A DNA stretch of 52,728 nt. It comes from Robiginitomaculum sp. (GTDB lineage Bacteria > Pseudomonadota > Alphaproteobacteria > Caulobacterales > Maricaulaceae). The position numbers were made by a program, and so were the translations under genes. The stretch spans positions 1 to 52,728 of the forward strand of contig WFTT01000036.1 in the NCBI GenBank assembly GCA_015485335.1. The letters run 5' to 3'. Shown here piece after piece: positions 11,176 to 26,205 of the stretch. The notes under the pieces were generated by a model. The model did not search any database. It worked only from the letters and a program-made list of their open reading frames with translations, and was not told where the DNA came from. The first letter of the stretch is position 1. Every line of letters starts with the position of its first letter.

Positions 11176-12107
11176 CCGCCAACGCCCCGCGCGATAACAA
11201 AGCCGATCGCCAGCAGGAGGCACAGGCTGGCATGGGCAAGCAGCGTAAAGGGGATGGCCGGGATCAACTGGCCCCGGCGCAAGGCCCGAATGGCCAGTAC
11301 CGCCGGGATCAATGCCAACAGCGCCCCTTTGGGCCATAGCGGCAAGGGGGCGGCGATAAGGCCAAGAGCCCCAATAGCAAACAGCACGACCAGGCCATGG
11401 CGCGCCAGTGCCGCCCCCAGCCGTACCGGCAGAGTGTTTTTGCCCGCCTGTTTGTCGGCCTCAATATCGGGGATGGAATTCACCCACAAAATGGCCGCGG
11501 TAAAACTGCCCATCACCAGACCCAGCCACCAGGCTCCTGCGGGGATATGGCCAAGCAGCATATAGCTGACACCAATGGCGGGCAGCACCCCAAAGCAGAG
11601 CGCAATGGTCAGATCGCCCAGCCCCTTGGGAGCCAGACCACCGGGCATGGAATAAAGCGCGGCAAACACCCCGCCGGTTAGCCCGATATAGAGCAAAGTC
11701 GGCCCAATAATGGCGCTAAGGTAGAGCCCCATCAGCGCCCCTGCACCCATCAGGGCCATGCCCAAATTGCGCACCTCTTCGGCGCGCATCACGCCATTCT
11801 GAATAAAGCGACTGCCCCCGGTAAAAGGATAAATGCGGGCCTGATTGGCCGCATCGGTGCCATTTTTGGCATCAAAATAGTCATTCAGCGCATTGGCCCC
11901 CAAATGGATCAGTGCAATGTTAACGATCGCCGCCAGCACCAGTGGCAAAGAAAATGCCCCCGTGTGCAGATACCAGGCATAGGCAGAGGCGGCGATCACC
12001 GGCAAAACCGAGGCACTGAGAAAAGCGGGGCGCGTGGCGGCCACCCACATGGCCAGCACATTGCCGGTATTGCGGCGGTGATATAGCGCGATACTGGGTT
12101 CGGTCAT
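11172..12107 (-). CDS. UbiA-superfamily prenyltransferase, MenA-like
   Basis: This 311-residue polytopic membrane protein has about eight hydrophobic helices. The first Asp-rich motif is NALNDYFDAKNGTDAAN and the second is NSIPDIEADKQAGKNTLPVRLG, both intact; they bind the Mg-prenyl diphosphate. The GTD and GKNTL..RLG phrasing resembles 1,4-dihydroxy-2-naphthoate prenyltransferase (MenA) more than UbiA or haem O synthase. Its ATG overlaps the nosY stop by 4 bases and its stop overlaps the thioredoxin start, so it is an integral member of the nos transcript. A quinone-type prenyltransferase is not a standard nos gene. It could modify the quinone that feeds NosGH. The acceptor is unknown. Confidence 0.82.
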   Translation of the reverse strand: MTEPSIALYHRRNTGNVLAMWVAATRPAFLSASVLPVIAASAYAWYLHTGAFSLPLVLAAIVNIALIHLGANALNDYFDAKNGTDAANQARIYPFTGGSRFIQNGVMRAEEVRNLGMALMGAGALMGLYLSAIIGPTLLYIGLTGGVFAALYSMPGGLAPKGLGDLTIALCFGVLPAIGVSYMLLGHIPAGAWWLGLVMGSFTAAILWVNSIPDIEADKQAGKNTLPVRLGAALARHGLVVLFAIGALGLIAAPLPLWPKGALLALIPAVLAIRALRRGQLIPAIPFTLLAHASLCLLLAIGFVIARGVGG

Positions 12108-12931
12108 GGATAATCACCCCGTTTAAAGACAAGAAAACCGCCAAGCGCCAGCATAGCCCCCAGCCCAATGGGATAGAGCACAGAATAGAGCATAAAGCCC
12201 GTCCGGCCAAAAACATCCAAAATCAGATAGGCCGTTGGCCCCAGCATCAGCAATTGTGGATCAAACAGGATCATCGCTCCGCCGCGAAATACCTCCAGTG
12301 GATTTAAGAGCGCAATGGTCATGACCAGCTCTGGCGCGGCCTGTGCCCGGATCAACAGGCCCAGCAGGATGAGGTCCAAAAATAACAAGAGGGTCAGCCA
12401 GAGCAACAGCGCCGCGCTTTGCGCCATTTCGGTGGTGCGCGCCATGGCCGAGATCAAGAACCCAAAGCCCAAAAAGCAAAAACTGAGCACCAGCAGCAGA
12501 AGCGAATACCACGCCACCTGCCCCATGGGCACGGCGGCGCCCTTGAGGGCACCCCACAACACCGCGCCCAGCATAGCCACAAAAACCGGCAAGAAAATCA
12601 CCACAAAGCGGCCCACAAAACGGCCCCAATACCAGGCCCCCAGGGAAACCGGCAGGGAAAGCATATATTCATTCACCCCCGCCTCGCGATCCCCGGCCAG
12701 GGAACGCACCGTGGTGATCAACACAAACAGCGGCATAATCGCCATGGTCAGTTGGATATAGGTGACCAGCAGGCGCGACAGACCGGTAAAGCCGCGCACC
12801 CGCGATTCGCTGAGCCCGAAGACAAACAGGATCACCACAATCGCCCCAAAGATCAGCGCATAGAGCAAAAACCAGCGGGCGCGCAGGGATTCAGAAATAT
12901 CCAGCCGCGCCGTATGCAAAAACCCCTTCAT
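12104..12931 (-). CDS. nosY: NosY, ABC transporter permease of the nos maturation system
   Basis: This 275-residue integral membrane protein of the ABC-2 type has about six hydrophobic segments. It contains the typical early periplasmic/cytoplasmic loop RSLAGDREAGVNEYMLSLPVSLGAWYWGRF, quoted here only as a landmark beginning RSLAGDREAGVNEYML. In the NosDFY complex it forms the membrane part that couples ATP hydrolysis by NosF to the periplasmic NosD, for copper-site assembly in NosZ. Its ATG overlaps the nosL stop as ATGA. The NosF, NosL and NosD genes in the same run make the assignment firm. Confidence 0.93.
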   Translation of the reverse strand: MKGFLHTARLDISESLRARWFLLYALIFGAIVVILFVFGLSESRVRGFTGLSRLLVTYIQLTMAIMPLFVLITTVRSLAGDREAGVNEYMLSLPVSLGAWYWGRFVGRFVVIFLPVFVAMLGAVLWGALKGAAVPMGQVAWYSLLLLVLSFCFLGFGFLISAMARTTEMAQSAALLLWLTLLLFLDLILLGLLIRAQAAPELVMTIALLNPLEVFRGGAMILFDPQLLMLGPTAYLILDVFGRTGFMLYSVLYPIGLGAMLALGGFLVFKRGDYP

Positions 12932-13380
12932 TGACCCGATCCCATTTTCATATCCATGCCCATTTTGGGGCGCGCCAATACGGACCGGACCATGGCATCA
13001 AAATCCACGGCTTTGTCTGTTTTTTCGGCAATGGCCCCAAAGCCAAAATCCATCGGCGTGGTCTGATCGGCGACAAAATACGCGGTGCGTGCATCCAGCC
13101 AGCCTTGCCCATCGCGCATATTCATTACCCAGACCTCGGCCTGGGCGCCCGGGCCGCCATGGGCCTTCATCCATAAAACGGCACCGCCAATATCGTCAAA
13201 ACGGTGCAGCACACCATCTTTCCCACGCACTTCGGCGGCAAAATGCGGGTCCGAGATGATCATGCGGCATTGCTCGCATACATCGCGATCATAATGAATT
13301 GCTTGCGGCCCGGTTTTGGGACCACCACAGGCCCCAAGGCCCACCAGCATCATCACCAGAAGAGGGAAAAGCGCTTTCAT
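12928..13380 (-). CDS. nosL: NosL, copper-binding lipoprotein chaperone
   Basis: The protein has 150 residues with a lipoprotein signal peptide whose lipobox LGAC places the modified cysteine at residue 18. The copper-binding motif CEQCRMII follows at about residues 35-42, then the NosL-type stretch FDDIGGAVLWMK. NosL is an outer-membrane or periplasmic Cu(I) donor that passes copper to NosD/NosZ for CuZ assembly. The gene overlaps nosF and nosY by 4 bases at each end, so stoichiometric coupling is likely. A C-terminal Met-rich tail (KMGMDMKMGSG) may add copper ligands. Confidence 0.93.
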   Translation of the reverse strand: MKALFPLLVMMLVGLGACGGPKTGPQAIHYDRDVCEQCRMIISDPHFAAEVRGKDGVLHRFDDIGGAVLWMKAHGGPGAQAEVWVMNMRDGQGWLDARTAYFVADQTTPMDFGFGAIAEKTDKAVDFDAMVRSVLARPKMGMDMKMGSGQ

Positions 13381-14240
13381 GACGCGGCCTCCTTTTTATC
13401 CTGCAAGTGAATGTCGCACAGCAATCCCGCATAGCGGGTCAGCATGCCCAAAAAGCGAAGACGGTCTGGCCCGGCAATGCTGCCCTGCCACAAACAACCG
13501 CTTTTATCGGGGGCAAGGCCCCATTCAGCGACGGTTTTGGCAAAGGCCGCATCGGCACGTTTTATGGTCAGGGTACAGGCAAGGCGCGCCGTGGGGTCGG
13601 TGACATCCTCCACCCGGTCATCCAGCACCACCTTGCCCCGGTCCAGCTCGACCACCCGGTTAACCAGGGCGGCAACCTCTTCCAGCCGGTGCGAGGAAAT
13701 AATCATGGTGTGGTCCAGGCGCTCGCCCATCAGATCAAACAGAATCTGGCGCGCCTTGGGGTCCAGATTGGCCGTTGGTTCGTCCATAATAATGGTGCGG
13801 GCCGGACGGCCCATGGCAATGGCGATCAGGATTTTCTGTTTCTGACCACCCGAGAGCTTCACAAAGGGCCGATTGCTGATTTCATCCAGATCCAGCCCCA
13901 GGCGCGCCCCGATGGCACCCATGTCGGTGCTGTTCGCCCCGCAAATCTTGGCGGCATAGTCAAACAAAATCCCAACGGGTATTTTCAGGGGCGGCGGCAA
14001 TTGCGGTACAAAGCTGATATGGCGCAGCACATCAGTGCGATGCGCCCGGGGCGAGCGGCCATTGACCGATACCTGCCCCTCATAGACATATTCGCCCAAA
14101 AGGCATCGGATCAGCGTGGTCTTGCCCGCCCCGTTCGAGCCAATGAGCGCAATACGATCACCCGGCCGAATGGTCAGGTCCAATTGGTCCAGCACCCGGG
14201 TTTTGCCAAAGTTTTTGCTCAGACGGGAAAATTCAATCAC
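13377..14240 (-). CDS. nosF: NosF, ABC transporter ATPase of the nos maturation system
   Basis: This 287-residue ATP-binding cassette protein has Walker A GSNGAGKTT near residue 34, signature LSGGQKQK, Walker B TIIMDEPTANLDP and the switch His in IISSHR. It powers the NosY permease. The start codon is GTG at 14240, and its first base is shared with the last base of the nosH TAG stop (TAGTG), a translational re-initiation arrangement. The alternative of a later ATG would remove the first beta strand. The C-terminal ~70 residues are the variable regulatory part seen in NosF proteins. Confidence 0.93.
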   Translation of the reverse strand: MIEFSRLSKNFGKTRVLDQLDLTIRPGDRIALIGSNGAGKTTLIRCLLGEYVYEGQVSVNGRSPRAHRTDVLRHISFVPQLPPPLKIPVGILFDYAAKICGANSTDMGAIGARLGLDLDEISNRPFVKLSGGQKQKILIAIAMGRPARTIIMDEPTANLDPKARQILFDLMGERLDHTMIISSHRLEEVAALVNRVVELDRGKVVLDDRVEDVTDPTARLACTLTIKRADAAFAKTVAEWGLAPDKSGCLWQGSIAGPDRLRFLGMLTRYAGLLCDIHLQDKKEAAS

Positions 14241-15229
14241 TAGAGCAATCCCCCCAGACCCTTGACCTTGAAGGTCAGCGCGCCGGTGGGGCAGGCCTCA
14301 AGGCACATGCCGCACCGGGTGCAATCGGCCCCAATATCCATATTCACATCCGTGGCGCGGCCCTTGATGGTCATGTCCAGCACATGGGGCACCAGACAGA
14401 CCGCGCGGCATTCGCCCTCGTGCAGGCATTCGTTCAGATCGTAATGCACCACGGTGGGCGAAACTGATCCCACCAGAGAATAGGTGATGCCGATGGGGCA
14501 GACATAGCGGCACCAGAAGCGACGAATGAAAAACAACTCGATCAACAACAACAAACCTACCCAGGCGAGCGCCAGCGTAAGTCCATAGGTGAAGGCGCGA
14601 CTTAAGATGCCCACCGGATTGATAAATTCAAACACGGTAAAACTGGTGATAAAGGCCAAAGCGGCAAACACCACATACAGCACGGCGCGCATACCCCGAT
14701 GCAGCGGTATGTCCTTGGCCCATCCCCTTTCCACCAGTTTCAGATGCAGCATTTCCACCCATTCCGAGGCCAGATGATAGGGGCAGGCCCAGGAACAAAA
14801 TGCCCGGCCGCCGACCAACCACCACAGCACCGCCACGGTGACCATGCCAATGACCACATTGGTGAGGATGGTTTTTTGCGCGAGCGTAATCTGTATGCCC
14901 GAGTTCAGATCTGCCATGTGAAAGCCGACTAAACGCGAGGCGGTCAGCGCCCCTTCGACCAGTTGCACATCGAATTTATAGGACACCACAAACATCAGAT
15001 TGATCAAAATGATCGAGGCCCAGCGCCATTTGCGCCATTTATAACTGGGCTTTTTATCGGCCAGCTCCTCGCGGATTTTGGCCAGCCGCACCAGCCGCAC
15101 CTCCGGGGTTTTCTTATAGGCATGCAGGGCCTTGGCTTCTTCGGAATAGTCGCTTTTGGCCGGCTTGCCGGGGGCCGCCCCCAACATCACTTTTAACGAA
15201 TGCAGATAAGCTTTTAGCGCACGGGACAT
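14240..15229 (-). CDS. nosH: NosH, membrane ferredoxin-type quinol dehydrogenase subunit (NapH-like)
   Basis: The protein has 329 residues with about five transmembrane segments. The NapH/NosR-type double motif CSWACPYHL and CRYVCPIGI is in the membrane part, and a C-terminal 4Fe-4S motif CTRCGMCLEACPTGAL follows an additional Cys-rich stretch. With NosG it is thought to carry electrons from quinol to periplasmic cytochromes c feeding NosZ in clade II systems, replacing the NosR route. ATG 15229 shares its A with the nosG stop (TAATG); the frame reading up to 15310 is not needed. NapH of periplasmic nitrate reductase is the alternative name, but the nos context decides. Confidence 0.9.
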   Translation of the reverse strand: MSRALKAYLHSLKVMLGAAPGKPAKSDYSEEAKALHAYKKTPEVRLVRLAKIREELADKKPSYKWRKWRWASIILINLMFVVSYKFDVQLVEGALTASRLVGFHMADLNSGIQITLAQKTILTNVVIGMVTVAVLWWLVGGRAFCSWACPYHLASEWVEMLHLKLVERGWAKDIPLHRGMRAVLYVVFAALAFITSFTVFEFINPVGILSRAFTYGLTLALAWVGLLLLIELFFIRRFWCRYVCPIGITYSLVGSVSPTVVHYDLNECLHEGECRAVCLVPHVLDMTIKGRATDVNMDIGADCTRCGMCLEACPTGALTFKVKGLGGLL

Positions 15230-15999
15230 TACGCACTCTCCCGTTTGGCGGCAATGTCGATGGTGATGCTGGATGGCTCGGTCGGGCAGATCATTTCGCA
15301 CATGCCGCACCCGACGCAGACATCGGTATTGACCACCGGGGTGCGACGTTTGTCATTGGGATCATCACTTAGGGGCTGCATGGAAATGGCGTTTTTGATC
15401 GGGCATTCGCGCACACACAGATCACATATTTCCAGATCATAAGGATGATCGGCAATGGGAATGGGGTTCCACCGGTCCACCTCCACATAGCGGTGAATGC
15501 CGGGGAAATCTTCGCCCCGGGCGAGGCCGACAAAACCCTGGCCCTGGCGGGCGAGACAGGTGGTGGGGCTGGAAAGCCGCGCCAGACCCATCTGCACTTC
15601 TTCTTTTTTGTTGATCTTGTGGCTGAGCGAGCCGGTGGGACAGGCCAGAATGCACTGGGTGGCATCACAGGAAAAATCACAAGCCTGCGCCCGCGCATCA
15701 ATATAGGGCGTGCCAAGGCCAAAGCCGTCCATAATATCGGCCAGCTTGATGGCATTGACCGGGCAAACCTGTTCGCACTGACCGCATTTAATGCACGAGG
15801 CCAGAAACAAACGCTCGTCAAGGGCGCCGGGCGGCCGCAGACGCGTCTGGCCATTTTTGGCCACCGGCACATAACCGGCCAGCCCCACACCCGTTACCCC
15901 GGCCCCGGCCGCCATGGACAAAAGCAGGGTGCGCCTTTGCTTTTGCTTGCGCGAAAGGTGCTTTTTGGCTGGTTTCTTTTTCGCTTTTGGCTCAGTCAT
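15229..15999 (-). CDS. nosG: NosG, polyferredoxin (NapG-like)
   Basis: The protein has 256 residues. Four Fe-S cluster motifs are visible in order: CIKCGQCEQVCPVNAI, CDFSC....CILACPTGSL, CDLCVRECPIKNAI and CVGCGMCEMICPTEPSSI. A basic N-terminus (KQKQRRTLLLSMAAGAG) followed by a hydrophobic stretch may act as a Tat-like signal or anchor, but lacks the canonical SRRxFLK. With NosH it forms the proposed quinol-to-cytochrome electron path. ATG 15999 overlaps the nosD stop by 8 bases; an alternative Met at 16029 would give a larger overlap and a less typical N-terminus. The alternative label NapG is rejected because no nap genes are present. Confidence 0.9.
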   Translation of the reverse strand: MTEPKAKKKPAKKHLSRKQKQRRTLLLSMAAGAGVTGVGLAGYVPVAKNGQTRLRPPGALDERLFLASCIKCGQCEQVCPVNAIKLADIMDGFGLGTPYIDARAQACDFSCDATQCILACPTGSLSHKINKKEEVQMGLARLSSPTTCLARQGQGFVGLARGEDFPGIHRYVEVDRWNPIPIADHPYDLEICDLCVRECPIKNAISMQPLSDDPNDKRRTPVVNTDVCVGCGMCEMICPTEPSSITIDIAAKRESA

Positions 16000-17377
16000 C
16001 ACTTTTATCTTTATCTGTATAGAGACCAAAGGGGTCGAGACGCTTCATCGACGTGCCGGCCTTGTCGGCGCTGGTGGTCAGGCCAAAGGTGTGCAGGCGC
16101 ACCCCTTCATTGGCCTCGCCCTCGGCCAGGGTAAGGGGGGTAAAGGCCCGGCGGATGCGCGGCTGGTCATCTTCCAGCATGACCAGAGGATCGGTAAAGG
16201 GGGCCAGACGTTCCATAAAATCCAGAAAGCCCAAAGCCGGGGAACCTTTGAAAAAGGCGGCATTGGGCACATCCATCCATAAACGATCCGCATAAACATT
16301 CAGCCGATAGGGGGTATCGCCCAGCCCGTCTTTATTGCCGTCAAAGCCCTGATAATCATCCCAGTAATTGCCCTGCCAGACATTGTGATTGGCCCCGGCA
16401 AAGGTGCTGACACTGACGTGGCGGATATTGTTCATGAACCGATTGTCCTTGAACAGATTGCCGTGCCAGTCGTTCAGAAAACTGACCCCCACATCATTAA
16501 AGGCAATGGTGTTACGGTAGATCCGGTTGGTGGTATCGGGCTGGAACGGCGAAACATCCAGATAAAGGCCGGTGCCGTTATAGAGGATTTCATTGTCCAC
16601 AATGTCCAGATTGCTGGCCTCTTTGAAGCCAATGCCGATCCCGGCGGCCCCCTGGGCCTGGACAATGCGGTTTTTACGCACCACCACACTGTCGCTATAC
16701 ATCAGGAATATACCGGTAGAGTTTTTGGCAAAGGTATTGCCCTCGACCAGATTATAGCGCGAATACATGAAGTGCAGACCATAGCGGCCATTGCTGACCC
16801 GGTTATTGGCAATAATATTGTCGGCGGAATACCAGACCACAAAGTCGCGCGAATTGGTGATGGTGTTATCTTCGATCCGGTTGTTTTTGGAATACCACAG
16901 CCGGATGGCATCGCCGCGCACCCCCAGCCCGATGTCCGATTGCGAGGAAATCCGGTTACGCCGCAGCACGTTATTGTTGGACTGTTGCAGGCTGATCCCA
17001 AACAGGCATTCCTCGATCACATTGTCTTTGATGACATTGGAATTGCCATAAACCGCCACCCCGGCGTCGATGTCATTATGCTGGTCGCCCGAATTGACCA
17101 GACGCAGGTTTTGCACGCTCACCCCATTGCCGCGAATGGTGATCACCGCTCCCTCACCGCCGTTATCAATGGTCACCTTGCCCTGGCCATCCAGAGTAAT
17201 GGGTTTGGTAATCACCACCGGCCCGGCATAGGTGCCTGCCAGCGGCTGGACAATATCGCCGGGGCTGGCCGCATCGATCAATGGTTGTAGGGGCGGCAGG
17301 GGCACGGCCCCCATGGCCGAACCCGCCACCAGCAATGCGAGCGCGGTGATCACGGGAAGGAGAAACACACGCCCCAT
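15992..17377 (-). CDS. nosD: NosD, periplasmic copper-site assembly protein
   Basis: This protein of about 461 residues has a Sec signal peptide (LPVITALALLVAGSAMGA), a long right-handed parallel beta-helix (pectate-lyase-like repeats such as NVIKDNVIEECLFGI, NNRIEDNTITNS and NLVEGNTFAKNS) and the conserved end YWDDYQGFDGNKDGLGDTPY. NosD receives copper from NosL and works with NosFY to mature CuZ in NosZ. A GTG directly precedes the ATG at 17377, and AAAGGGA lies 7-10 bases upstream, so the start may be either. The nosB stop is 6 bases upstream. All expected family features are present. Confidence 0.94.
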   Translation of the reverse strand: MGRVFLLPVITALALLVAGSAMGAVPLPPLQPLIDAASPGDIVQPLAGTYAGPVVITKPITLDGQGKVTIDNGGEGAVITIRGNGVSVQNLRLVNSGDQHNDIDAGVAVYGNSNVIKDNVIEECLFGISLQQSNNNVLRRNRISSQSDIGLGVRGDAIRLWYSKNNRIEDNTITNSRDFVVWYSADNIIANNRVSNGRYGLHFMYSRYNLVEGNTFAKNSTGIFLMYSDSVVVRKNRIVQAQGAAGIGIGFKEASNLDIVDNEILYNGTGLYLDVSPFQPDTTNRIYRNTIAFNDVGVSFLNDWHGNLFKDNRFMNNIRHVSVSTFAGANHNVWQGNYWDDYQGFDGNKDGLGDTPYRLNVYADRLWMDVPNAAFFKGSPALGFLDFMERLAPFTDPLVMLEDDQPRIRRAFTPLTLAEGEANEGVRLHTFGLTTSADKAGTSMKRLDPFGLYTDKDKSDD

Positions 17378-17383
17378 CACCGT

Positions 17384-18682
17384 CTATCCCTTTGGTTCGT
17401 CCATTAGCTGTTTGCGCCGCAATAATAGCGCCAGACCGGTCATGGCAGACATCACCATCATCACCCCAAAGCCAATGGAGGGATAGGAGTGGGTGGTAAA
17501 TTGCGCCACTTTGCCCTCGCCGATCACCGTGGGCATGAAGGCCTTTAAGGTAAATGCCCCCATATCGTTCAGGCTGTGACCATACCACCAGAGCCATCCG
17601 GCATATTCCACCAGAAAGAAAAACGGCAGCATCAGCGGACCAATGGCCAGCAGATAATAAAACACAGAGCCGGTTTTGCGGGTCAGCAGCACCAGCGCGA
17701 TCATCACCAGCAAAATCCCCCAAAAGGCAATGGTGCCCACCGTGGACATGATCTTGACCAGCGGTTCGATCTCCTTGGGATTATTGAACCAGCGGCCCAG
17801 CCCTTTTTTGTAATTCCAGAACAGCACCTGTTTGCCGCTGCCGGTCCATTGTTCCCGGGCGCCCGGCGGACGACGATCCTGATCGGCATCAAAAGAGGCA
17901 TGCAGGATCGAGATATACAGATCCTTGCCCTTCAAATTACCGTTACCGGCCTCGGCCAAAATATCTTTTAGCAATTTGCCCGCATTGCCGGTATCGCCAG
18001 AGCCTGAATGCAGCCGTTCCAGCGTGGCCATCAGGCCGCCCTGGCCAGAGCGATCCAGACTATCCTTCAAATCATCGCGGCTCTGCATCGAGCTTTCACC
18101 GCTTTCCTCCAGCGATTTTTTAAGGCGCGCAATGATGGGGCTGATGTCTTCGCCGGTTTCCTCTTCACCCTGTCCCAGGGCCGTTACCATGGCAGACAGA
18201 TATTGATCGCTTTGGTATTTCACCCCGCCCGGCGCGTAATAGGCCATGGCCATCCAGATGGCGATGGCCCCAAAACCGACCGACAGGATAATCATACGGC
18301 GGCGTTCATCCTTAAAGGCAAACCCCACCAGCATCACCGCCATCATGCCCAGCAAAAACGGGGCAAAGAATTTTTCCAGCACCCCGCCAGAGGCAATGGG
18401 ATACATGCCGACAAAATGGTTGATGGCATCCATTTCGTGCACACAGTTCAGGGCGCTGGTTTGTTCGATCTCGGCCTTTTGATGCAGGGTACAGCCGTTA
18501 AAAACACCGTTTAGGTGAAAATTGATCCGCACCCCGTCGGGAAAGGCCTCTTTGGGATATTGGGGGGCCGACAAAGACACCCACCAGGCGGGCAAATAAT
18601 ACACCACCACCAACAGTACAGCCGCCCCAAAGGCCAGGATTTTCACCAGCCTGTCACGCTTTTCCTGCACAGAAATATCCAT
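17384..18682 (-). CDS. nosB: NosB-like membrane protein of clade II nos clusters
   Basis: This 432-residue integral membrane protein has an N-terminal helix (ILAFGAAVLLVVVYYLPAWW), a periplasmic segment with two cysteines, two further helices, and a large soluble loop (about residues 165-270) rich in Glu, Ser, Gly and Lys with ISPIIARLKKSLEESGESS. Four or so C-terminal helices follow. It matches the position and topology of NosB, the membrane protein of unknown function characteristic of clade II nos operons, lying between nosZ/cytochromes and nosD. GGGGAAA lies 8 bases before ATG 18682. A role in electron transfer or in assembly is possible. The gene name rests on context and general likeness. 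Confidence 0.75.
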   Translation of the reverse strand: MDISVQEKRDRLVKILAFGAAVLLVVVYYLPAWWVSLSAPQYPKEAFPDGVRINFHLNGVFNGCTLHQKAEIEQTSALNCVHEMDAINHFVGMYPIASGGVLEKFFAPFLLGMMAVMLVGFAFKDERRRMIILSVGFGAIAIWMAMAYYAPGGVKYQSDQYLSAMVTALGQGEEETGEDISPIIARLKKSLEESGESSMQSRDDLKDSLDRSGQGGLMATLERLHSGSGDTGNAGKLLKDILAEAGNGNLKGKDLYISILHASFDADQDRRPPGAREQWTGSGKQVLFWNYKKGLGRWFNNPKEIEPLVKIMSTVGTIAFWGILLVMIALVLLTRKTGSVFYYLLAIGPLMLPFFFLVEYAGWLWWYGHSLNDMGAFTLKAFMPTVIGEGKVAQFTTHSYPSIGFGVMMVMSAMTGLALLLRRKQLMDEPKG

Positions 18683-18701
18683 CGTCTTTCCCCATTAGAG
18701 C

Positions 18702-18728
18702 CACGCCCGGCCAAGATGGCCGGTCGTG
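18702..18728. promoter_or_regulatory. Intercistronic hairpin between the cytochrome c gene and nosB
   Basis: CACG-C-CCGGCC (18702-18712) pairs with GGCCGG-T-CGTG (18718-18728) around loop AAGAT, giving a 10-bp stem with one mismatch. On the minus strand it follows the cytochrome stop and is not followed by a U-tract, so mRNA processing or stability is likelier than full termination. The plus strand does have TTTTT after it. Confidence 0.5.
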
Positions 18729-18748
18729 TTTTTCGGTTTTAATAACCC

Positions 18749-19525
18749 TTAGTCGAAGTCCGGATTGTACCAGTCCGCACTGGGGGCCAGATCTTCGGCC
18801 GGTGGTTTCAGGCGGGAGACATAATCCACCACCGCCTTCATATCGGTGTCCGAGAACCCGGCAATCTGCTTGACCATATCCGGGTTGGCATTGCGCCGTT
18901 TTTTATCGCGAATCCATTCAAACTGACGCAGCAGATATTTGTAATGCTGGCCCTGGATACGCGGATAATATTTGGCATTATCGCCCTGGCCATTATCCCC
19001 ATGACAGCGCACGCAATTTTCCTTGTAGAGCTTGGCCCCCAGTTCCAGATTATCACCGGGACCGACGCCGGGCTCCGGATTCATGGGGATGCTCTGGATA
19101 TAGCGTGCTACCGCCGCAATGGCATAGGGGCCACCACCCACTTCGGGGGCTGCGTTTTCTATCTCTTTTGGCAGGGCAAAAGGATACATGGTCGGGTTAT
19201 CCCGGTTCAGCGCCCGGATATCCGATAATTGCTTGATGATCACATCTTCATGCTGGCCAGCCAGTTGCGGGAAGGTACCGTCCTTGGTGCCCCAGCCTTC
19301 GGGCAGATGGCAGGCCGAACACACCTCGAACACCGCCACGCCATCGGCGCGCACTTTTTCCAGCTCGGCCTTGGACATGGATTTGAACTGTTTGGTGAAG
19401 ACCAGCGCCTCATCCTGTTCCCCGCCGCCCTGATTCCACCCGGCCGGCTTGTCGGTAAAGGCGGCCAGACCAATGCTGAGGGCGATCACGCCCAGGGCCG
19501 TCATGCTTGCTTTGGAAAATTTCAT
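18749..19525 (-). CDS. Dihaem cytochrome c of the nos cluster (NosC-like, second)
   Basis: The protein has 258 residues with a Sec signal peptide (ALGVIALSIGLAAF) and two c-type haem motifs, CSACH near residue 69 and CVRCH in the second half. The spacing and the FSDTDMKAVVDYVSRL ending suggest two cytochrome-c4-like domains. It probably shuttles electrons in the periplasm from NosGH to NosZ. Start ATG 19525 is chosen because GGAG lies six bases upstream; Mets at 19528 and 19567 are alternatives. A perfect Fnr-type box lies 54 bases upstream, so this gene may head its own anaerobic transcription unit with nosBDGHFLY. Confidence 0.88.
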   Translation of the reverse strand: MKFSKASMTALGVIALSIGLAAFTDKPAGWNQGGGEQDEALVFTKQFKSMSKAELEKVRADGVAVFEVCSACHLPEGWGTKDGTFPQLAGQHEDVIIKQLSDIRALNRDNPTMYPFALPKEIENAAPEVGGGPYAIAAVARYIQSIPMNPEPGVGPGDNLELGAKLYKENCVRCHGDNGQGDNAKYYPRIQGQHYKYLLRQFEWIRDKKRRNANPDMVKQIAGFSDTDMKAVVDYVSRLKPPAEDLAPSADWYNPDFD

Positions 19526-19550
19526 CATGCTCTCCAACTTTAATATACTC

Positions 19551-19592
19551 ATGCTAGCCGATTTCACGGCGTCATTTATTGATTGGGATCAA
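19551..19592 (-). promoter_or_regulatory. Fnr-type box and -10 forming an internal nos promoter
   Basis: TTGAT-TGGG-ATCAA at 19579-19592 is a perfect Fnr consensus dyad. It covers the last codons of the first nos cytochrome gene. With the dyad centre at 19585.5, an activator at -41.5 puts transcription start near 19544. TAGCAT at 19556-19551 (4/6 to TATAAT) is then correctly placed as -10. The ATG at 19525 and its GGAG follow. Confidence 0.65.
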
Positions 19593-20280
19593 TTTGCGAC
19601 AAATAATCTGACAGGGCGCCGATCTCTTCATCGCTCAGTCGTTTCACAAACGGCAACATCATGCGCGAACGCCCATTGGTGCGCACCCCGTCGCGGATAT
19701 CGGTCATTTGCACCTGCAGATAGGCCGATTTCTGGCCGGCCAGGCGCGGATACCCTTTCAGCGGTTTATTGCCGTTCACCCCATGACAGGTCCGGCATTT
19801 GCCTTTTTTATAGGCCGCCTCGCCCGCCGCAATACGGTCTGCACTTAAGGCCGGGTCATGGACTTGCGGACCGGCGGGATCCAGTTTGGACAGCCAGTCA
19901 GCCAATATCTTGATCTCGTCATCGCTAATCCGCATCTCCCCATCAGAGGTGACCAGCGAGCCACGCATGCTTTCGGCGCGCGGATGTCCGGTAACCGGAT
20001 CATTGCTGCCCTGGCGTTTTTTATCCAGAATGTCCTTGACCTGGGTGCGGATATAAGCGGCATCCAGACCAGCAATATCGGGATATTCCTGAATCGCCCG
20101 CGCCCCGTTTCTGCCATGACAGGCCATGCAGGTTTTGCGCAAATAAAGGCGTTTGGCCGAAGGTGGCTTGGGGGCGGCGGCGGTTGCTTCCTGTGCCACG
20201 GCACCGCCAATTACCGGGGAAAACGCCAAAAGCGCCGGTATGGCCAGCGCCGCCATAACCATTGGTTTTAAAGTCCGCAT
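19576..20280 (-). CDS. Dihaem cytochrome c4-like protein of the nos cluster (NosC-like, first)
   Basis: The protein has 234 residues. A signal peptide (MVMAALAIPALLAFSPVIGG) precedes two haem motifs, CMACHGRNG and CRTCHGVNG. Each sits in a cytochrome-c4 type domain with a downstream P.(L/I)AG segment (EYPDIAGL, GYPRLAGQ) and a candidate distal Met in SRMMLPF. It is the gene directly after nosZ and probably the closest electron donor to NosZ's CuA. ATG 20280 has GAGGA upstream; the frame extends to 20478 only through sequence antisense to a hairpin and the nosZ end. Its 3' end contains the Fnr-type box that serves the next gene. Confidence 0.88.
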   Translation of the reverse strand: MRTLKPMVMAALAIPALLAFSPVIGGAVAQEATAAAPKPPSAKRLYLRKTCMACHGRNGARAIQEYPDIAGLDAAYIRTQVKDILDKKRQGSNDPVTGHPRAESMRGSLVTSDGEMRISDDEIKILADWLSKLDPAGPQVHDPALSADRIAAGEAAYKKGKCRTCHGVNGNKPLKGYPRLAGQKSAYLQVQMTDIRDGVRTNGRSRMMLPFVKRLSDEEIGALSDYLSQIDPNQ

Positions 20281-20312
20281 CGTCTTGATCCTCAGTTGTT
20301 GTTTGGGAATAG

Positions 20313-20338
20313 GAAGGGCAGACCACGGCCTGCCCTTC
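20313..20338. promoter_or_regulatory. Intercistronic hairpin downstream of nosZ
   Basis: GAAGGGCAG (20313-20321) and CTGCCCTTC (20330-20338) form a perfect 9-bp stem with an 8-base loop. It lies between the nosZ stop and the first cytochrome gene. There is only a weak T-rich tail (TTCC) on the minus strand, so it may act as a leaky terminator or a 3' stabiliser that raises nosZ mRNA over the rest of the operon. Confidence 0.55.
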
Positions 20339-20351
20339 ACCAGATTCCGGA

Positions 20352-22655
20352 CTAGTCTTTGGTTTCGACCAGTTTGGCCCCATGCTCTTCCAGATAGGTT
20401 TTGGCACGCAGACCAATGTCGGCGGTTTTCACCTGATACTGGAACCATTGCTGGGCCCAAAGGGTGGCGTTCTGCCAATCCTTGGCGACGGCATAGTCTT
20501 CGGACTTTTTCTTCGCATCGGCGGCAAAGTTCAGTTGGTCCGTGGCATCTTCCACCAGGGAAACCACCGGCGCAAAATCCTTGAAGTTCCGCGCGGTAAT
20601 ATACCCAACCACACTGTCGATAACCTCCTGGGTCTGGACATTGGTGGCCACCTGTTTGGAATAATCCGCCTCGGTATAGACCGTGCCCTGACTGGTTTTA
20701 CCGCTAGAGGCTTTCATACCTTTTGGCCGGACCAGCAGATAGCCTTGCATTTCCAAGTGCAGGGCCGAGCAGAACTCGGTGCAGTAATAGGGGAATACCC
20801 CGGCCTTGTCGGCGACAAAGGTTGCCGAAACCGTTTTGCCCGGCTCGACCGACAGGTTCACATTGGTGCCGTTAATGGCAAAGCCGTGGGTTTCATCCTG
20901 GGCGCGTTCCACATTGGTAAAGTGTACCGAAACCGTATCGCCTTGTTCCACCTCGATGATTTCCGGCGTGATGTGAGAACGGATCAGCGTGCCATAAACA
21001 TGGGTCACGCCATCTTTTTTCACAATTTTCTCACGGCCCGGACGGGTGCGATATTCTGATTTTTCATCCGTGCGACTGTTCCAGCCGGTGGAGTAACGAA
21101 TCTTGGGTTTCAGCTTGTCTGCCGCAATGGCCACCGCATAGTGCGGCTCGCCCAGTGGCACCGGCATATCGTAAAGCAATTCCATTTTATCGCCGGAAAT
21201 GTCGATCAACTGGTGATTTTGCGGATGCAATGGCCCCACCGGGTTAAAGCGGTCAATGGCCAGTTTGTTCAGCGCCACCAGATACTTGCCCTTTGGTTTG
21301 ACGCTGTCGCCTTCCATGGTCATCAAGTGGCCGACATTATAGTGAATGTGCAGGGTATCGAGCACCTTGCCTTTGCAATAATCCCATTTGGTCACCATGG
21401 AATCCACATAGATGGAGGTATAGACCGTACACGGTTTGGAATCATACTGGGTGTGTAATGGCCCCAGACCCACTTCGACCTGGGTGTGCAGGGATTTTTT
21501 CAAATCCAGTATTGGCACCCCGTACGGGTCTTTGCCGGCAAAGTCTTTCTTGTCGATCAGGGCCTTGATTTTCTTGAAATCGTAAACGCTGGCATGGGTG
21601 TCCAGCTTGCCTGAAACAATCAGATAACGCCCATCGGGGCTGACATCGATGCCGTGCGGGCTCTTGGCCTCGGGCAACATGAAAAGCACACCCTCCTTGA
21701 TGGCCGTTTTCATCATCAGGACCTGCATCCCGTTGACTTCCTTGCCCTTGCCAGCGGCGATCAGCTCAGCCGCTTTTTTCCAGTTGATAATGTGCAAAAA
21801 GTCTGTGTCTTTTTGCGAACACCCGGCCTCAAACGGTGGTCGCCCGCTTTCAATACCGCCGATATAGCGCTCGGTGCAGAACGAGTTGGTAAACGACCAG
21901 CCTTCACTGATCCCTTTACCAAAATCCGACAGATCCTGACTGTATGGTGGCAGCTCGACAGTGAAAGAGTTTTGCGGCTCAATACGACCGATTTCGCGGT
22001 TGAATTTCCAATAGGTGACTGCGCCACGATATTTTTGATTGAATTTGGACAACGGCACATATTTCTTGGAAAAAGGTGCCGGATATTGCGAAGCCTCAAT
22101 CACGTATTCCGTATTGGTGGAAACAAATGCTCCCCCATGTTCGGACTTCATGATCGGGTTGACGACAATCTGTTTGGTTTCGAAATCCTTCAGGTCAACA
22201 ACCGCCAGACGGGGGTTGTTCTTGTCATTGATAAACAGGTATTGGCCATCATATTCGCCATTGGTTTCCGAAATGGCCGGGTGGTGCGTATCACCAAACT
22301 TGATGTCCTTGCCATCAATGCGCCCTTGGGCCAGCACGGCCTTGGATTCATCATCAAAGCCATAACCCTGCCAGGGTTCGGGGGTGAACACACCAATATA
22401 TTTCAGGATCCGCATGGATGGGATGCCATAAACGATCAGTTGGCCGCTTTGGCCGCCGGAACTGAACGCCAGAAATTCATCGCGCCCGCCCGTAGGCACA
22501 TAGGTTTTGGCCGCCGCCAGAACGTCCTTGTCGGTCAGACCCCGGGCCTTCATGACGTCTTGTAGTGTATCATCGCCAAAGGCGGCACTGGATGCCGCCA
22601 TAGACAGGCCGACAACCGCCGAGCCCATGAGTAAATGCTTGGTAAAGTGTTGCAT
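20352..22655 (-). CDS. nosZ: NosZ, nitrous oxide reductase, clade II (Sec-exported), with C-terminal extension
   Basis: The protein has 767 residues and reduces N2O to N2 in the periplasm. The signal peptide (HLLMGSAVVGLSMAASSAAFG) is Sec-type with no twin-arginine motif, a hallmark of clade II. CuZ His-bearing segments are present: DTHHPAISETNGEYDG, EHGGAF, SPHGIDVSPDGRY, GPLHTQYD, HYNVGH and GEPHYAVA. The CuA motif is YYCTEFCSALHLEMQGY with Cys625, Cys629, His633 and Met636. About 120 helix-rich residues follow (about 647-767) without any CxxCH. ATG 22655 is preferred to ATG 22661 because GGAGG is 8 bases upstream of it but almost touches the other. Maturation genes follow in order. A Crp/Fnr-family box lies 145 bases upstream. 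Confidence 0.97.
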   Translation of the reverse strand: MQHFTKHLLMGSAVVGLSMAASSAAFGDDTLQDVMKARGLTDKDVLAAAKTYVPTGGRDEFLAFSSGGQSGQLIVYGIPSMRILKYIGVFTPEPWQGYGFDDESKAVLAQGRIDGKDIKFGDTHHPAISETNGEYDGQYLFINDKNNPRLAVVDLKDFETKQIVVNPIMKSEHGGAFVSTNTEYVIEASQYPAPFSKKYVPLSKFNQKYRGAVTYWKFNREIGRIEPQNSFTVELPPYSQDLSDFGKGISEGWSFTNSFCTERYIGGIESGRPPFEAGCSQKDTDFLHIINWKKAAELIAAGKGKEVNGMQVLMMKTAIKEGVLFMLPEAKSPHGIDVSPDGRYLIVSGKLDTHASVYDFKKIKALIDKKDFAGKDPYGVPILDLKKSLHTQVEVGLGPLHTQYDSKPCTVYTSIYVDSMVTKWDYCKGKVLDTLHIHYNVGHLMTMEGDSVKPKGKYLVALNKLAIDRFNPVGPLHPQNHQLIDISGDKMELLYDMPVPLGEPHYAVAIAADKLKPKIRYSTGWNSRTDEKSEYRTRPGREKIVKKDGVTHVYGTLIRSHITPEIIEVEQGDTVSVHFTNVERAQDETHGFAINGTNVNLSVEPGKTVSATFVADKAGVFPYYCTEFCSALHLEMQGYLLVRPKGMKASSGKTSQGTVYTEADYSKQVATNVQTQEVIDSVVGYITARNFKDFAPVVSLVEDATDQLNFAADAKKKSEDYAVAKDWQNATLWAQQWFQYQVKTADIGLRAKTYLEEHGAKLVETKD

Positions 22656-22749
22656 AGTCATCCCCTCCAGAAGGTGTGCCACAGCGACTTCCAGTGCCCT
22701 GTGCCGTAGAAACTTCTGATAGGTATCACCAGGCTTGGGGCGCTGATAA

Positions 22750-22873: not shown

Positions 22874-23560
22874 ATGATGTACTTCAGTCATAAATTATCT
22901 TTACGTACAATACGTACAATCGGTGTTGGGGTGGTTCTGACCCTGGTGCTGGCCGGGTGTACCCAACAGGGAGCCCCGCACGCCCAGGGCGTCGCCGACA
23001 GCCCCCCCGCCATGGCACAAAATACCCGTGGCGAAACACAAAACACCCCCATTGGCGGACGTTTCATTCTGCGCTCTCATACCGGAAAAGTGGTCACCGA
23101 TCAGGATTTTCAAGGACAGTTTCTGCTGATCAATTTTGGCTATACTACCTGCCCGGATGTCTGCCCCACCACACTGGTCAAGCTGGCCGAAGTGGACCAT
23201 CTTTTGGGTGATTTGGCAGACCAGGTACAGGTATTATTCATCAGTGTTGATCCGGATCGCGATACCCCACAGGTTCTCGAGGACTATGTCACCAGCTTTG
23301 ATCCTGCCTTTATCGGCCTGAGCGGCACCAGGGCGGCGATTGATTCGGTGACCGGCAAATACCACGTCAAATACGCCTTTGTCGGCCGCGATAACGACAC
23401 CGACACAGACTATACGGTCGACCATACCTCCTCGGTCTTTTTCATGGGGCCGCACGGCGAATATATTGGCCGGTTCAGCTATTCCACCCCCGCCGAAACC
23501 ATTGCCAAAAAGGTCAGTGAAACCATCAAGGCGACCCCGCCACCGGCCAAAGCCCCTTAG
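22874..23560 (+). CDS. SCO1/SenC-type copper chaperone lipoprotein
   Basis: The protein has 228 residues. A lipoprotein signal peptide (VVLTLVLAGC) is followed by a thioredoxin-fold domain with the copper site CPDVC in FGYTTCPDVCPTTLVKL and the third ligand His in VDHTSSVFFMGP. SCO proteins deliver copper to or reduce CuA centres. Adjacent and divergent to nosZ, this one probably serves the NosZ CuA site. ATG 22874 (or 22877) is preceded by AAGGG; the frame extends upstream to 22676 only through the promoter. Its stop overlaps the convergent ubiV stop by 4 bases, leaving no room for a terminator. Confidence 0.9.
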   Translation: MMYFSHKLSLRTIRTIGVGVVLTLVLAGCTQQGAPHAQGVADSPPAMAQNTRGETQNTPIGGRFILRSHTGKVVTDQDFQGQFLLINFGYTTCPDVCPTTLVKLAEVDHLLGDLADQVQVLFISVDPDRDTPQVLEDYVTSFDPAFIGLSGTRAAIDSVTGKYHVKYAFVGRDNDTDTDYTVDHTSSVFFMGPHGEYIGRFSYSTPAETIAKKVSETIKATPPPAKAP

Positions 23561-24462
23561 GTCGTCGGCGTGTGGCTCCAGTCGGCACCGGTTTTGCCAA
23601 ACATAAAGCCATTGCTATAGCGCGGGGAGATGGCCCGTTCTTCCAGCATGGACAGGGCTTCACCGGCGGAAATATTGCCATCACAGGCAGCGCGAAAGGT
23701 CTGTGCCACATGGACCATGTCTTCGCTATGGGGTGACAGCCTTAGCGAGGTGACCCCGGCCTGGCCAATGACGGTCACATCACCAACCAAATTGGCTCGG
23801 CTTTCCGACAGGGTCTGCACGCCATTAATGGCCAGAAACTTCTGATCATCCAGGGTATCCACCGCCAGACCGTCCATATCCTCCTCGCACACAAACAGGC
23901 ACGAATCCTTGCTGCGCCCGGCCAGACGCGCATGATAACAGCGCCCCGATATGGCCAGTGGCAAACGGCCATAGGCCCAGACCTCGATCCCCGCGCCGGC
24001 TTTTGCACCATGCCCGGCCAGGGTTGTCACCGTCTCTATGGGCAGTTCGGGGGGCAGACAGATATGGGTGGCCCCACGGGCCATCAACCAGCCCAGCGTG
24101 CCGGTATTATAGACGTTGACCAGCGGCCCCACGGAAAATTCCTGATCCTTTGCAAGATAGCGCATCATGGTCAAATCATTCACCTCGATGGCAAAGCCGG
24201 CCTCGGCCAGGTCAGACAGCATGGCCTGTTCCCGTTTCAGAGTGACCAGCCCCAGAGAGGCCAGCACCACGTCCTTGCCACCACGTTGTAACCGTTCGGC
24301 AATTTCGGGGATCAGGGCCTCGTAAAACGGCAGGCGTTTGGAACACACCACCTCGCCCAGTACCACCCGGTCTATTGGTGCCTCATCGGCTATGCGGGCA
24401 TAAAAATCCCGTATCAGGTCAGGCTTCCAGTGGAACATTAATGGCCCCAGAGTCAGTTGCAT
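23557..24462 (-). CDS. ubiV: UbiV, U32-family protein for O2-independent ubiquinone synthesis
   Basis: This 301-residue peptidase-U32-like protein begins MQLTLGPLMFHWKPDLIRDF, close to UbiV (YhbV). Conserved cysteines for its 4Fe-4S cluster are in LGEVVCSKR and in SGRCYHAR...DSCLFVCEED. With UbiU it carries out the hydroxylations of the ubiquinone ring without oxygen. ATG 24462 follows GGAG; the frame to 24507 is an extension into ubiU's end. Only 16 bases separate it from ubiU, so it is co-transcribed. It sits next to nos genes, as expected for a ubiquinone-dependent anaerobic respirer. Confidence 0.93.
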   Translation of the reverse strand: MQLTLGPLMFHWKPDLIRDFYARIADEAPIDRVVLGEVVCSKRLPFYEALIPEIAERLQRGGKDVVLASLGLVTLKREQAMLSDLAEAGFAIEVNDLTMMRYLAKDQEFSVGPLVNVYNTGTLGWLMARGATHICLPPELPIETVTTLAGHGAKAGAGIEVWAYGRLPLAISGRCYHARLAGRSKDSCLFVCEEDMDGLAVDTLDDQKFLAINGVQTLSESRANLVGDVTVIGQAGVTSLRLSPHSEDMVHVAQTFRAACDGNISAGEALSMLEERAISPRYSNGFMFGKTGADWSHTPTT

Positions 24463-24478
24463 GGCCGGCTCTCCTTTA

Positions 24479-25465
24479 TTAACGCCAGGTCTTGCGATAG
24501 GCGCCAACGGTGTTGTCCTGCCCCTCGCTCAGGTTTGCCAGGGCGCTGGGCGGAATGGGTTGGCCGGCGGCACAGGCCTCAACCGCCTGGCGAAAACTGC
24601 GAACCACGGCGGCAACATAGGCGCGGCTGCGCTGGCGACCTTCGATTTTCAGGGCGGTGACCCCGGCCTTGGCCATTTGCGGGATCAGGGTGGCGGCATC
24701 CAGACTGATGGCATCTTCAAACACATGGCCGGTGCGCGCGCCGGCGCTGAAACAGCCCTTGCACAGGGTTGGGTAAGGGGCGGGGGCGTCCTGGCCCACC
24801 TTGTCGATGGTAAACTCGCCCAGTTTTGAGACCAGTTCGCCGCCGCTTTGTTCGTACACCACATGGCTGGCCGGCGAGCATACCCCGTTCATATTGGGCG
24901 ATTGCCCGGTGGCATAGGAGGACAGCGAACAGCGCCCTTCTTCCATCACACACAGGCCGCCAAAGACAAACACTTCGGTTTCGGTATCAATTTCGCGATT
25001 AATCGCGGCGATTTCCGGCACGCTGAGCACCCGGGGCAACACCACCCGTTTGACGCCAAATTCTTCGGCATAAAAATTGATCACATCGGGATTGGCCGCC
25101 GCCGCCTGTACCGACAAATGCCGACGAAGCGAAGCGTGATGCTTGGCCGTGTGCGCCAACAGGCCGATATCGGCCAGAATCACCGCATCAACGCCGATGG
25201 TGTGCGCATCAGCCACCGCCCGGTGCCACAGGACCTCATTTCCCGCCTGGGGAAAAGTATTGATCGCCACCAGGACTTTGGCCCCGCGCTCATGGGCATA
25301 CTCAATCCCCGCCGCCATTTCTTCGCGGGAAAAGTTCAGGCCCGGAAAATTGCGTGCATTGGTCTCATCGGCAAAGCCGCAATAGACCGTATCGGCCCCG
25401 GCCCCAACCGCGGCGCGCAAAGAGGCCGGCGTACCGGCGGGACATACCAGTTCCAGCATGGTCAT
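24479..25465 (-). CDS. ubiU: UbiU, U32-family protein for O2-independent ubiquinone synthesis
   Basis: This 328-residue U32 protein begins MTMLELVCPAGTPASLRAAV and contains DETNARNFPGLNFS, both close to UbiU (YhbU). Candidate Fe-S ligands are in FGGLCVMEEGRC, NGVCSPASH and LCKGCFSAG, giving the four-cysteine set of the family. UbiU and UbiV form a heterodimer needed for anaerobic ring hydroxylation. ATG 25465 overlaps the ubiT stop as ATGA; ATG 25459 is an alternative start. True collagenase-type U32 peptidase activity is unlikely given the paired UbiU/UbiV context. Confidence 0.93.
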   Translation of the reverse strand: MTMLELVCPAGTPASLRAAVGAGADTVYCGFADETNARNFPGLNFSREEMAAGIEYAHERGAKVLVAINTFPQAGNEVLWHRAVADAHTIGVDAVILADIGLLAHTAKHHASLRRHLSVQAAAANPDVINFYAEEFGVKRVVLPRVLSVPEIAAINREIDTETEVFVFGGLCVMEEGRCSLSSYATGQSPNMNGVCSPASHVVYEQSGGELVSKLGEFTIDKVGQDAPAPYPTLCKGCFSAGARTGHVFEDAISLDAATLIPQMAKAGVTALKIEGRQRSRAYVAAVVRSFRQAVEACAAGQPIPPSALANLSEGQDNTVGAYRKTWR

Positions 25466-26016
25466 GACGTAAACTCCGCCCGGCGCAACGCGACCCCGGT
25501 TCGTTTTTGCAATTGACCCAACAGGGGCAGCATGCCCGGTTTGACATAACGCCCCACCGGCCCAAAGGCGGCCAGAAATTCTTCGAACAGGTCCAGTTCT
25601 GAATCATCAATGGCATTGCGCAACGCCAATACGGCCGCGGTATCCCCCTCCAGCGCGATATCGCGGGAAAAGAACAGCGCATCCCCGTCATAGGCCCCGT
25701 GAACCATGCCGATCAAGGCGGCCAGCGAACCGGCAATGCGCCCATCCCAGGGCCTGACCCGCCCGCGCCGATGCAGGGTAATCCGCGGGGCGTCGGGCAC
25801 CGGAAACACATGAAATACAAAGGGAAGGTCAACCGGGTCAATTTGAAAACACTTGCCCGCATGGGTGCCCAAACGCGCAAAAAGCGAGGGGTGACGACGC
25901 ACCATTTGCCGCGCCAGCCGGTTCATCACCATCGCCAATACGGGCAAAGGCAAAGGCCGCGCCAAAATACGTATGGCCGATGGCAATCGGGGAATGGTAC
26001 TGGATTGTGAAGACAT
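25462..26016 (-). CDS. ubiT: UbiT, SCP2-domain lipid-binding accessory factor
   Basis: This 184-residue protein of the SCP2 sterol-binding fold contains FHVFPVPDAPRITLHRRGRV and the SLAALIGMVHGAYDGDALFFSRDIALEGDT region (landmark: DALFFSRDIALEGDT) typical of UbiT (YhbT). It binds ubiquinone precursors and is essential for the anaerobic pathway. It is the first gene of ubiT-ubiU-ubiV. AGGA lies 8 bases before ATG 26016. The 189-base divergent promoter shared with the glycyl radical enzyme gene holds two dyads. Confidence 0.9.
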   Translation of the reverse strand: MSSQSSTIPRLPSAIRILARPLPLPVLAMVMNRLARQMVRRHPSLFARLGTHAGKCFQIDPVDLPFVFHVFPVPDAPRITLHRRGRVRPWDGRIAGSLAALIGMVHGAYDGDALFFSRDIALEGDTAAVLALRNAIDDSELDLFEEFLAAFGPVGRYVKPGMLPLLGQLQKRTGVALRRAEFTS

Positions 26017-26048: not shown

Positions 26049-26104
26049 TTTGAACCCTCAAACCCCGTCGCGGCTCTGCTCCCAGCATCGCCGACCTTGG
26101 TCAT
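26049..26104. promoter_or_regulatory. Dyads in the ubiT / glycyl radical enzyme divergent promoter
   Basis: CCGAC-CTTG-GTCAT (26091-26104) shares the 11-mer GACCTTGGTCA with the nosZ-sco box and matches TTGAC-N4-GTCAA at 7 of 10 arm positions. A second dyad, TTTGA-ACCC-TCAAA (26049-26062), is 33 bases before ubiT but its half-sites are 2 bases too close for Fnr. The region 26017-26205 holds no gene. A further dyad, TTGCA-TTT-TGCAA (26178-26190), lies just before the plus-strand ATG. Confidence 0.45.
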
Positions 26105-26205
26105 CAGCGCCAACCATAAAGCTTGCGACAAATGGTCCCAGCACGGTGCCTTCTGAACAGTGCCACCATCCGGTAATTTGCATTTTGCAATGGCAAGACT
26201 GGCCC

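Follow-up and report, generated by a model that had tools for sequence, protein, structure and literature searches.

In the nos cluster studied here, a Crp/Fnr-type dyad at the end of the cytochrome gene nosC1 and a TAGCAT hexamer downstream of it probably make up a secondary promoter within the operon, dependent on an activator and specific to this lineage. We place the probability of this reading, which is drawn from sequence comparison, at roughly 0.55. A dimer of the Crp/Fnr family would bind at -41.5 and recruit RNA polymerase, and a transcript starting near position 19544 would carry nosC2 with the downstream maturation and electron-transfer genes, adding to read-through from the nosZ promoter. 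The same regulator probably reads both nos boxes and is most likely a fusion of a NIT domain with a Crp/Fnr protein, with nitrate or nitrite as its input. We infer binding, transcription, and the choice of regulator and signal at the nosC2 box from the comparisons below. Positions refer to the window, the whole 52,728-base stretch that was analyzed, which belongs to a 2.9-Mb draft genome of 146 contigs that is 98.97% complete (Table 1).

Table 1. Features of the nos region and of the candidate regulator gene; window positions unless a contig or locus is named
Feature	Position	Strand	Remark
nosZ, Sec-dependent nitrous-oxide reductase	20352..22661	-	TIGR04246 over cut-off
nosZ-upstream dyad TTGACCAAGGTCAA	22800..22813	-	TAGTTT 21 nt after it
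nosC1, c-type cytochrome, two CXXCH motifs	19576..20280	-	ORF and motifs
Crp/Fnr-type dyad TTGATCCCAATCAA	19579..19592	-	overlaps nosC1 codons I-D-P-N-Q just 5′ of the stop
Spacer from box to -10, 22 nt, containing the nosC1 stop codon	19557..19578	-	same length in sister species
Putative -10 hexamer TAGCAT	19551..19556	-	22 nt after box; identical in sister species
Predicted +1 (activator centered at -41.5)	19544	-	arithmetic from box center
GGAG, possible ribosome-binding site of nosC2	19532..19535	-	sequence
nosC2, c-type cytochrome, two CXXCH motifs; first gene of predicted internal transcript	18749..19525	-	
Remaining cluster on predicted transcript: nosB-like, nosD, nosG-like, nosH-like, nosF-like ATPase, nosL, nosY-like permease	12104..18682	-	
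NIT-Crp gene	G000:C65 24669-26263 (= L006 1429-3024)	minus in L006	C-terminal Cys motif

The nos cluster and the predicted promoter

We take the nosZ of the window, which is Sec-dependent, to be of clade II. NosD and NosH exceed the cut-offs of TIGR04247 and TIGR02163, respectively; NosL has a weak match, narrowly over the Pfam cut-off, and the nosB-like membrane protein has no family match and is named by position. Near the nos region lie an ORF for a pyruvate-formate-lyase-like glycyl radical enzyme (26050 to 28533; PF02901, PF01228) and, after it, a radical-SAM activase-like ORF (28537 to 29436). Close to nosZ are two Peptidase_U32 ORFs and an SCP2-domain ORF (23557 to 26016), presumably the UbiU/UbiV/UbiT set of oxygen-independent ubiquinone synthesis.

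On the minus strand, from 19592 to 19579, TTGATCCCAATCAA reads TTGAT-CCCA-ATCAA, and it is the sole instance of TTGAT-N4-ATCAA with 0 mismatches in the window. The perfect box that the initial annotation had placed across the last nosC1 codons is there, and the promoter arithmetic is correct: an activator at -41.5 gives a start at 19544, TAGCAT, a 4/6 match to the -10 hexamer, falls at -10, and the nosC2 ATG at 19525 follows 19 nt on. From the end of the nosC1 ORF to this ATG, the measured gap is 50 nt. TATATT at 19547 to 19542 is a better hexamer, but it is not favored because the box would then fall near -50.5. A generic promoter scan of 18600 to 20500 returned no minus-strand site at the nosC1/nosC2 box, and in the same interval no minus-strand terminator able to split nosC2 from nosZ was found. 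On the plus strand, a sigma-70-like match (TTGATT-17-AATAAT, 9/12) at 19579 to 19607 overlaps the dyad; it is probably due to chance, since the scanned region has 2 such matches against 1.3 expected.

Geometry also bears on what a protein bound at the box would do. Instead of activating, it could act as a roadblock or repressor that tunes the ratio of the nosZ-nosC1 transcript to the transcript from nosC2 onwards. The location of the box inside the operon would suit such a role, as would the boxes of the NIT-Crp gene itself, which lack a consistent activator geometry; against this, the -41.5/-10 arrangement suits activation, and no minus-strand -10 lies under the box. We consider a roadblock or repressor site very improbable.

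Chance expectation for the box and the -10

The whole 2.9-Mb genome contains 8 strict dyads and 16 of the form TTGAY-N4-RTCAA. The motif is enriched, since a reversed control pattern gives 0 against the 8 strict dyads. Five of these 8, the nosC1 box included, lie inside ORFs. We then resampled nosC1 synonymously, with the peptide held and codons drawn from 11 window genes. In 20,000 draws, a strict box appeared in the last 60 nt in 6.5% and the wider TTGAY/RTCAA box in 10.1%; with synonymous resampling yielding a box this often, the nosC1 box alone is weak to modest evidence. TAnnnT with at least 4/6 -10 matches occupies 0.44% of window positions, both strands counted. Judged after the fact, box and -10 together look clearly better than chance. 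The box itself could still have arisen by chance; a box with a well-placed -10 is harder to get.

A coding coincidence would account for the dyad as follows: I-D-P-N-Q with A/T-ending codons spells it, the site is not a promoter, and nosC2 depends on read-through from nosZ for its expression. The resampling frequencies of 6.5 to 10.1% speak for this, and so do the [IVLF]-D-x-[ND]-Q peptides that yield this dyad within nosD in other loci, the lack of the dyad in two congeners, and the 5/8 strict genome sites within ORFs. Left unexplained are TAGCAT at exactly 22 nt and its retention, with the spacer length, in the sister species, as well as the frequent boxes at the nosC1/nosC2 boundary elsewhere. 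We regard coincidence as possible rather than probable.

Sister species and congeners

A close nosC2 is present in 4/18 genomes of the genus: that of the window, its sister species G012, G009, and G001. In the sister, the NosC2 protein is identical and 187/235 nosC1 third positions are identical. The sister's junction box, TTGACCCGAATCAA, reads TTGAC-CCGA-ATCAA; the 22-nt spacer length and TAGCAT are kept, with 6/22 spacer bases changed as counted by eye from the alignment and 10/16 identical over 19560 to 19575. The junction dyad is absent in G009 and G001, whose nosC2 is 83 to 85% identical, and is thus retained in one of the three congeners with a close nosC2. The peptide needs no dyad, because G001 encodes V-D-P-N-K there without one. 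Loss of the dyad by synonymous change in relatives, which the initial annotation had said would refute the promoter, is seen in part: the sister keeps TTGAY-N4-RTCAA, the spacer length, and TAGCAT, but it has one synonymous half-site change (GAT to GAC), and the two other congeners are without the dyad.

Two further arguments were dropped. The leader, at 33/34 bases identical between window and sister, was considered as a conserved footprint and rejected, because 32% of 34-bp windows over 17384 to 22640 reach 33 or more and such identity is commonplace there. The absence of NIT-Crp in G009 and G001 (81% and 86% complete) was not used as a cause of the missing boxes, because G009 keeps a dyad between its formate dehydrogenase and moaA genes. 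Within 350 nt upstream of nosZ, G009 has no dyad.

The box upstream of nosZ had been assigned to a different, DNR-type class. That distinction did not survive comparison with the sister, whose orthologous nosZ site, TTGATCAAGATCAA, has the strict spelling TTGAT-CAAG-ATCAA and differs in both half-sites from TTGACCAAGGTCAA of the window. Between the same two genomes, the nosC2 site varies in the opposite direction. The contrast of Fnr and DNR boxes fails because the two spellings interchange at one orthologous site, and since the nosZ and nosC2 sites vary in opposite ways, both are compatible with a single regulator that reads TTGAY/RTCAA. The box TTGAT-N4-ATCAA is bound by FNR and DNR alike, according to the available text of PMC6152468.

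The junction in other nos loci

A scan of named genomes with a NosC2 alignment gave 230 loci, of which we took the best 80. A cytochrome ORF preceded nosC2 in 72, giving 73 usable rows with the window; among the 8 loci dropped for want of that ORF, 2 (L142 and L172) have a box upstream of nosC2. In this set, TTGAY-N4-RTCAA is found at 24/27 nosC1-nosC2 junctions with a gap of at least 90 nt. At gaps below 90 nt, it is found at 2/46, the window and L096, which is the sister G012; short-gap junctions with a one-heme nosC1 have it in 0/8 cases. Each of five control dyads occurs at 0/27 long-gap junctions and at none of the short-gap ones, and the 413,777 bp of background sequence downstream of nosC2 contain 10 dyads. 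By title, the 24 boxed long-gap junctions belong to 19 entries named "Gammaproteobacteria bacterium", 2 gammaproteobacterial symbionts, 1 member of Chromatiales, and 2 given only as Pseudomonadota or Proteobacteria. The three without a box (L105, L108, and L109) are all alphaproteobacterial, so gap length is confounded with lineage. Clustering by NosC2 identity puts these 24 into 15 groups at 90%, 12 at 80%, and one at 70%. Judging from these loci, the nosC1/nosC2 boundary recurrently carries a Crp/Fnr-type box in other bacteria.

On a NosC2 tree made by a quick method with a midpoint root, the box label changes 6 times against a shuffled mean of 23.5. The window and L096 lie inside an 18-row alphaproteobacterial group that is otherwise without the box (SH-aLRT 99), and because of this nesting, the junction box in the window lineage looks like a separate, recent gain. 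In the window, a second Crp/Fnr-type box separates nosZ-nosC1 from the genes that begin with nosC2, the feature by which we recognize a split of nosZ from the accessory genes. Against a secondary promoter stand the single transcripts of other nos clusters and the lack of the box at the 44 other short-gap junctions.

The spacing of the -10 could be compared across these loci. We scored -10 similarity over offsets of 10 to 35 nt after the box. For 26 nosC2-upstream boxes of other loci, a set without window and sister, the highest similarity is at 22 nt, with a mean of 3.65/6, and the remaining offsets score 0.58 to 2.88. The nosZ-upstream boxes (n = 41, window and sister included), each being the final dyad located over 2,400 nt upstream of the nosC1 end, also peak at 22 nt, at 3.20, with other offsets at most 2.46. 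TAnnnT stands exactly at 22 nt after 13/41 nosZ boxes and after only 3/26 of the other junction boxes.

TTGAY-N4-RTCAA was also seen at the 3′ end of nosD, shortly before nosG, at L099 8429, L100 8424, L101 8437, L102 8437, and L103 8436. Four of these loci are titled Hyphomicrobiales and one Anderseniella, and the peptide there is [IVL]-D-x-[ND]-Q in a variable linker. They are possibly another case of an internal box embedded in coding sequence.

A candidate regulator

Two proteins of the genome are over the cut-off for PF13545, with four weaker matches below it; the same two Crp/Fnr proteins, together with a 590-aa frame that has no PF13545 match over the cut-off, pass PF00027. One is a Crp-like protein of 229 aa with the recognition helix E-A-V-N-R. 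The other, of 531 aa, is the NIT-Crp fusion: it has a NIT domain (E 6e-38), a cNMP-binding domain, and HTH_Crp_2, and its helix is E-T-F-S-R. E-x-x-S-R is the Fnr-type contact set. Among the PDB relatives of the fusion's C-terminal part is DNR of P. aeruginosa (E 1.8e-27). Homologues of 525 to 572 aa were aligned from 15/18 congeneric genomes (15 of 16 parsed loci; G008a, L054, was left out as a wrong ORF), with the NIT domain itself confirmed for the window genome's protein only. The helix E-T-F-S-R is invariant in 15/15, as is C-x2-C-x7-C-x7-C at the C terminus. In a class-wide sample, a near-full-length match (E up to 1e-40) occurred in 1/384 other genomes, G701, at 41% identity. A search of mainly open-access literature found no published description of such a fusion.

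TTGAY-N4-RTCAA occurs upstream of the NIT-Crp gene in 11/15 cases, in both spellings, in the 66 to 207 nt of upstream DNA seen. In the window's genome, the NIT-Crp gene and an MFS transporter ORF (PF07690) are divergent, with a box between them; beyond that ORF come a NarK-family gene (E 1.7e-78 to TIGR00886, below its cut-off) and narG, which exceeds the cut-off of TIGR01580. Another box of the genome separates moaA (over cut-off) from a formate-dehydrogenase-gamma-like gene (below cut-off), and another, with TAAAAT at 22 nt, between the gene of a NIT-domain chemoreceptor and a 412-aa ORF without a family match. The proposed NIT-Crp regulon thus has both the E-x-x-S-R helix and boxes at nitrate-respiration genes. 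The boxes of the NIT-Crp gene itself lack a -10 peak at 22 nt, whichever way they are read: the mean score there is 1.45 towards NIT-Crp (11 boxes) and 2.3 the other way (10 boxes; 2.6 at offset 13). At G000:C69 2444-2457 (L043), TTGATAAATATCAA sits where an ORF reaches its 3′ end; a DUF411 gene follows, and an NnrS gene is about 0.9 kb away. This 14-mer recurs in G012 and G006.

The initial annotation had named Fnr as the activator. Among the 18 congeneric genomes, 11 of them at least 90% complete, none has a protein over the cut-off of the Fnr model, a strict one that passes in only 1/14 control genomes. Neither of the two Crp/Fnr proteins found in the window's genome is a canonical Fnr. The NIT-Crp fusion takes the place of Fnr as the candidate, and on sequence grounds it is the likelier reader of the nos boxes. 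The promoter could be real and its reader an oxygen-sensing Fnr that the assembly lacks or that has diverged beyond the reach of the models. Room for such a protein would be left by the dyad, which matches the textbook Fnr/Anr/Dnr consensus, by the draft state of the assembly (146 contigs), by a model that recognizes so few controls, and by the four sub-cut-off PF13545 matches and the 590-aa frame with its cNMP-binding match. The completeness of 98.97%, the lack of a match to the Fnr model in all 18 congeners, and the restriction of over-cut-off proteins to NIT-Crp, the 229-aa E-A-V-N-R protein, and the 590-aa frame argue against it, and we think a hidden Fnr unlikely.

Discussion

The internal promoter of the initial annotation keeps its box, the position, the -10, and the leader, and a box at the same boundary recurs in other loci; Fnr as activator and a distinct class for the nosZ box fall away. 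The strict form of the claim, in which a canonical Fnr drives this promoter and DNR controls nosZ separately, is not supported. What we have is probably a promoter of an established kind that occupies an uncommon place and has an unusual regulator as its reader. More tentatively, in this Robiginitomaculum-like genus NIT-Crp, whose Cys motif may hold a metal or an iron-sulfur cluster, might have taken over the Fnr box and might integrate nitrate and a redox or gas signal. It would then drive nar, the molybdenum-cofactor/formate dehydrogenase genes, nosZ, and the internal nosC2 promoter, and the nosC2 box would be new in coding sequence, converging on a mainly gammaproteobacterial nosC1/nosC2 box.

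Bacteria with the NosZ type of the window consume N2O, and their regulation bears on N2O emission. The recurrent nosC1/nosC2 box implies that separate dosing of the catalytic subunit and of the maturation and electron-transfer genes is possible, and that boxes can arise inside coding ends. Should NIT-Crp be the reader of both boxes, nitrate or nitrite would gate N2O reduction in this organism, and not oxygen through Fnr.

In the search of mainly open-access literature, we found no paper on an internal nosC1/nosC2 promoter. The nos clusters of Pseudomonas stutzeri, Ensifer meliloti, and Paracoccus denitrificans are of clade I. In these three, nosZ and the genes from nosD onwards (nosDFY) are separate transcripts, as cited in the accessible text of PMC5582078; the split of the nosZ transcript is like the one proposed for the window, but the gene order is another. 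Single nos units are described there for P. aeruginosa and B. diazoefficiens, and the available part of PMC6152468 gives one polycistronic nos unit for Marinobacter.

Fnr/Anr/Dnr-type promoters have the dyad and the -41.5 geometry seen in the window, but the candidate reader in the window genome has an N-terminal NIT domain, and no canonical Fnr was found there. One structure match of NIT-Crp is NasR (PDB 4akk), which also places a NIT sensor in a one-component regulator; its output is ANTAR, whereas NIT-Crp has a DNR-like Crp/Fnr part.

Nitrosophilus labii belongs to Campylobacterota, a phylum other than that of the window. In strain HRV44, Crp/Fnr-type sites lie upstream of nosZ and of the accessory genes from nosB, from which separate units were inferred, and some sites overlap the predicted start (PMC11539149, accessible text). 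An exact TTGA-N6-TCAA has its first base 48 bases ahead of the predicted nosB start (PMC11539149). The same distance separates 19592 from 19544 in the window, and in both cases nosZ is of clade II. Unlike in the window, the N. labii site is upstream of nosB and not in the end of nosC1, and its regulators are Nss-type; the starts are predicted in N. labii too.
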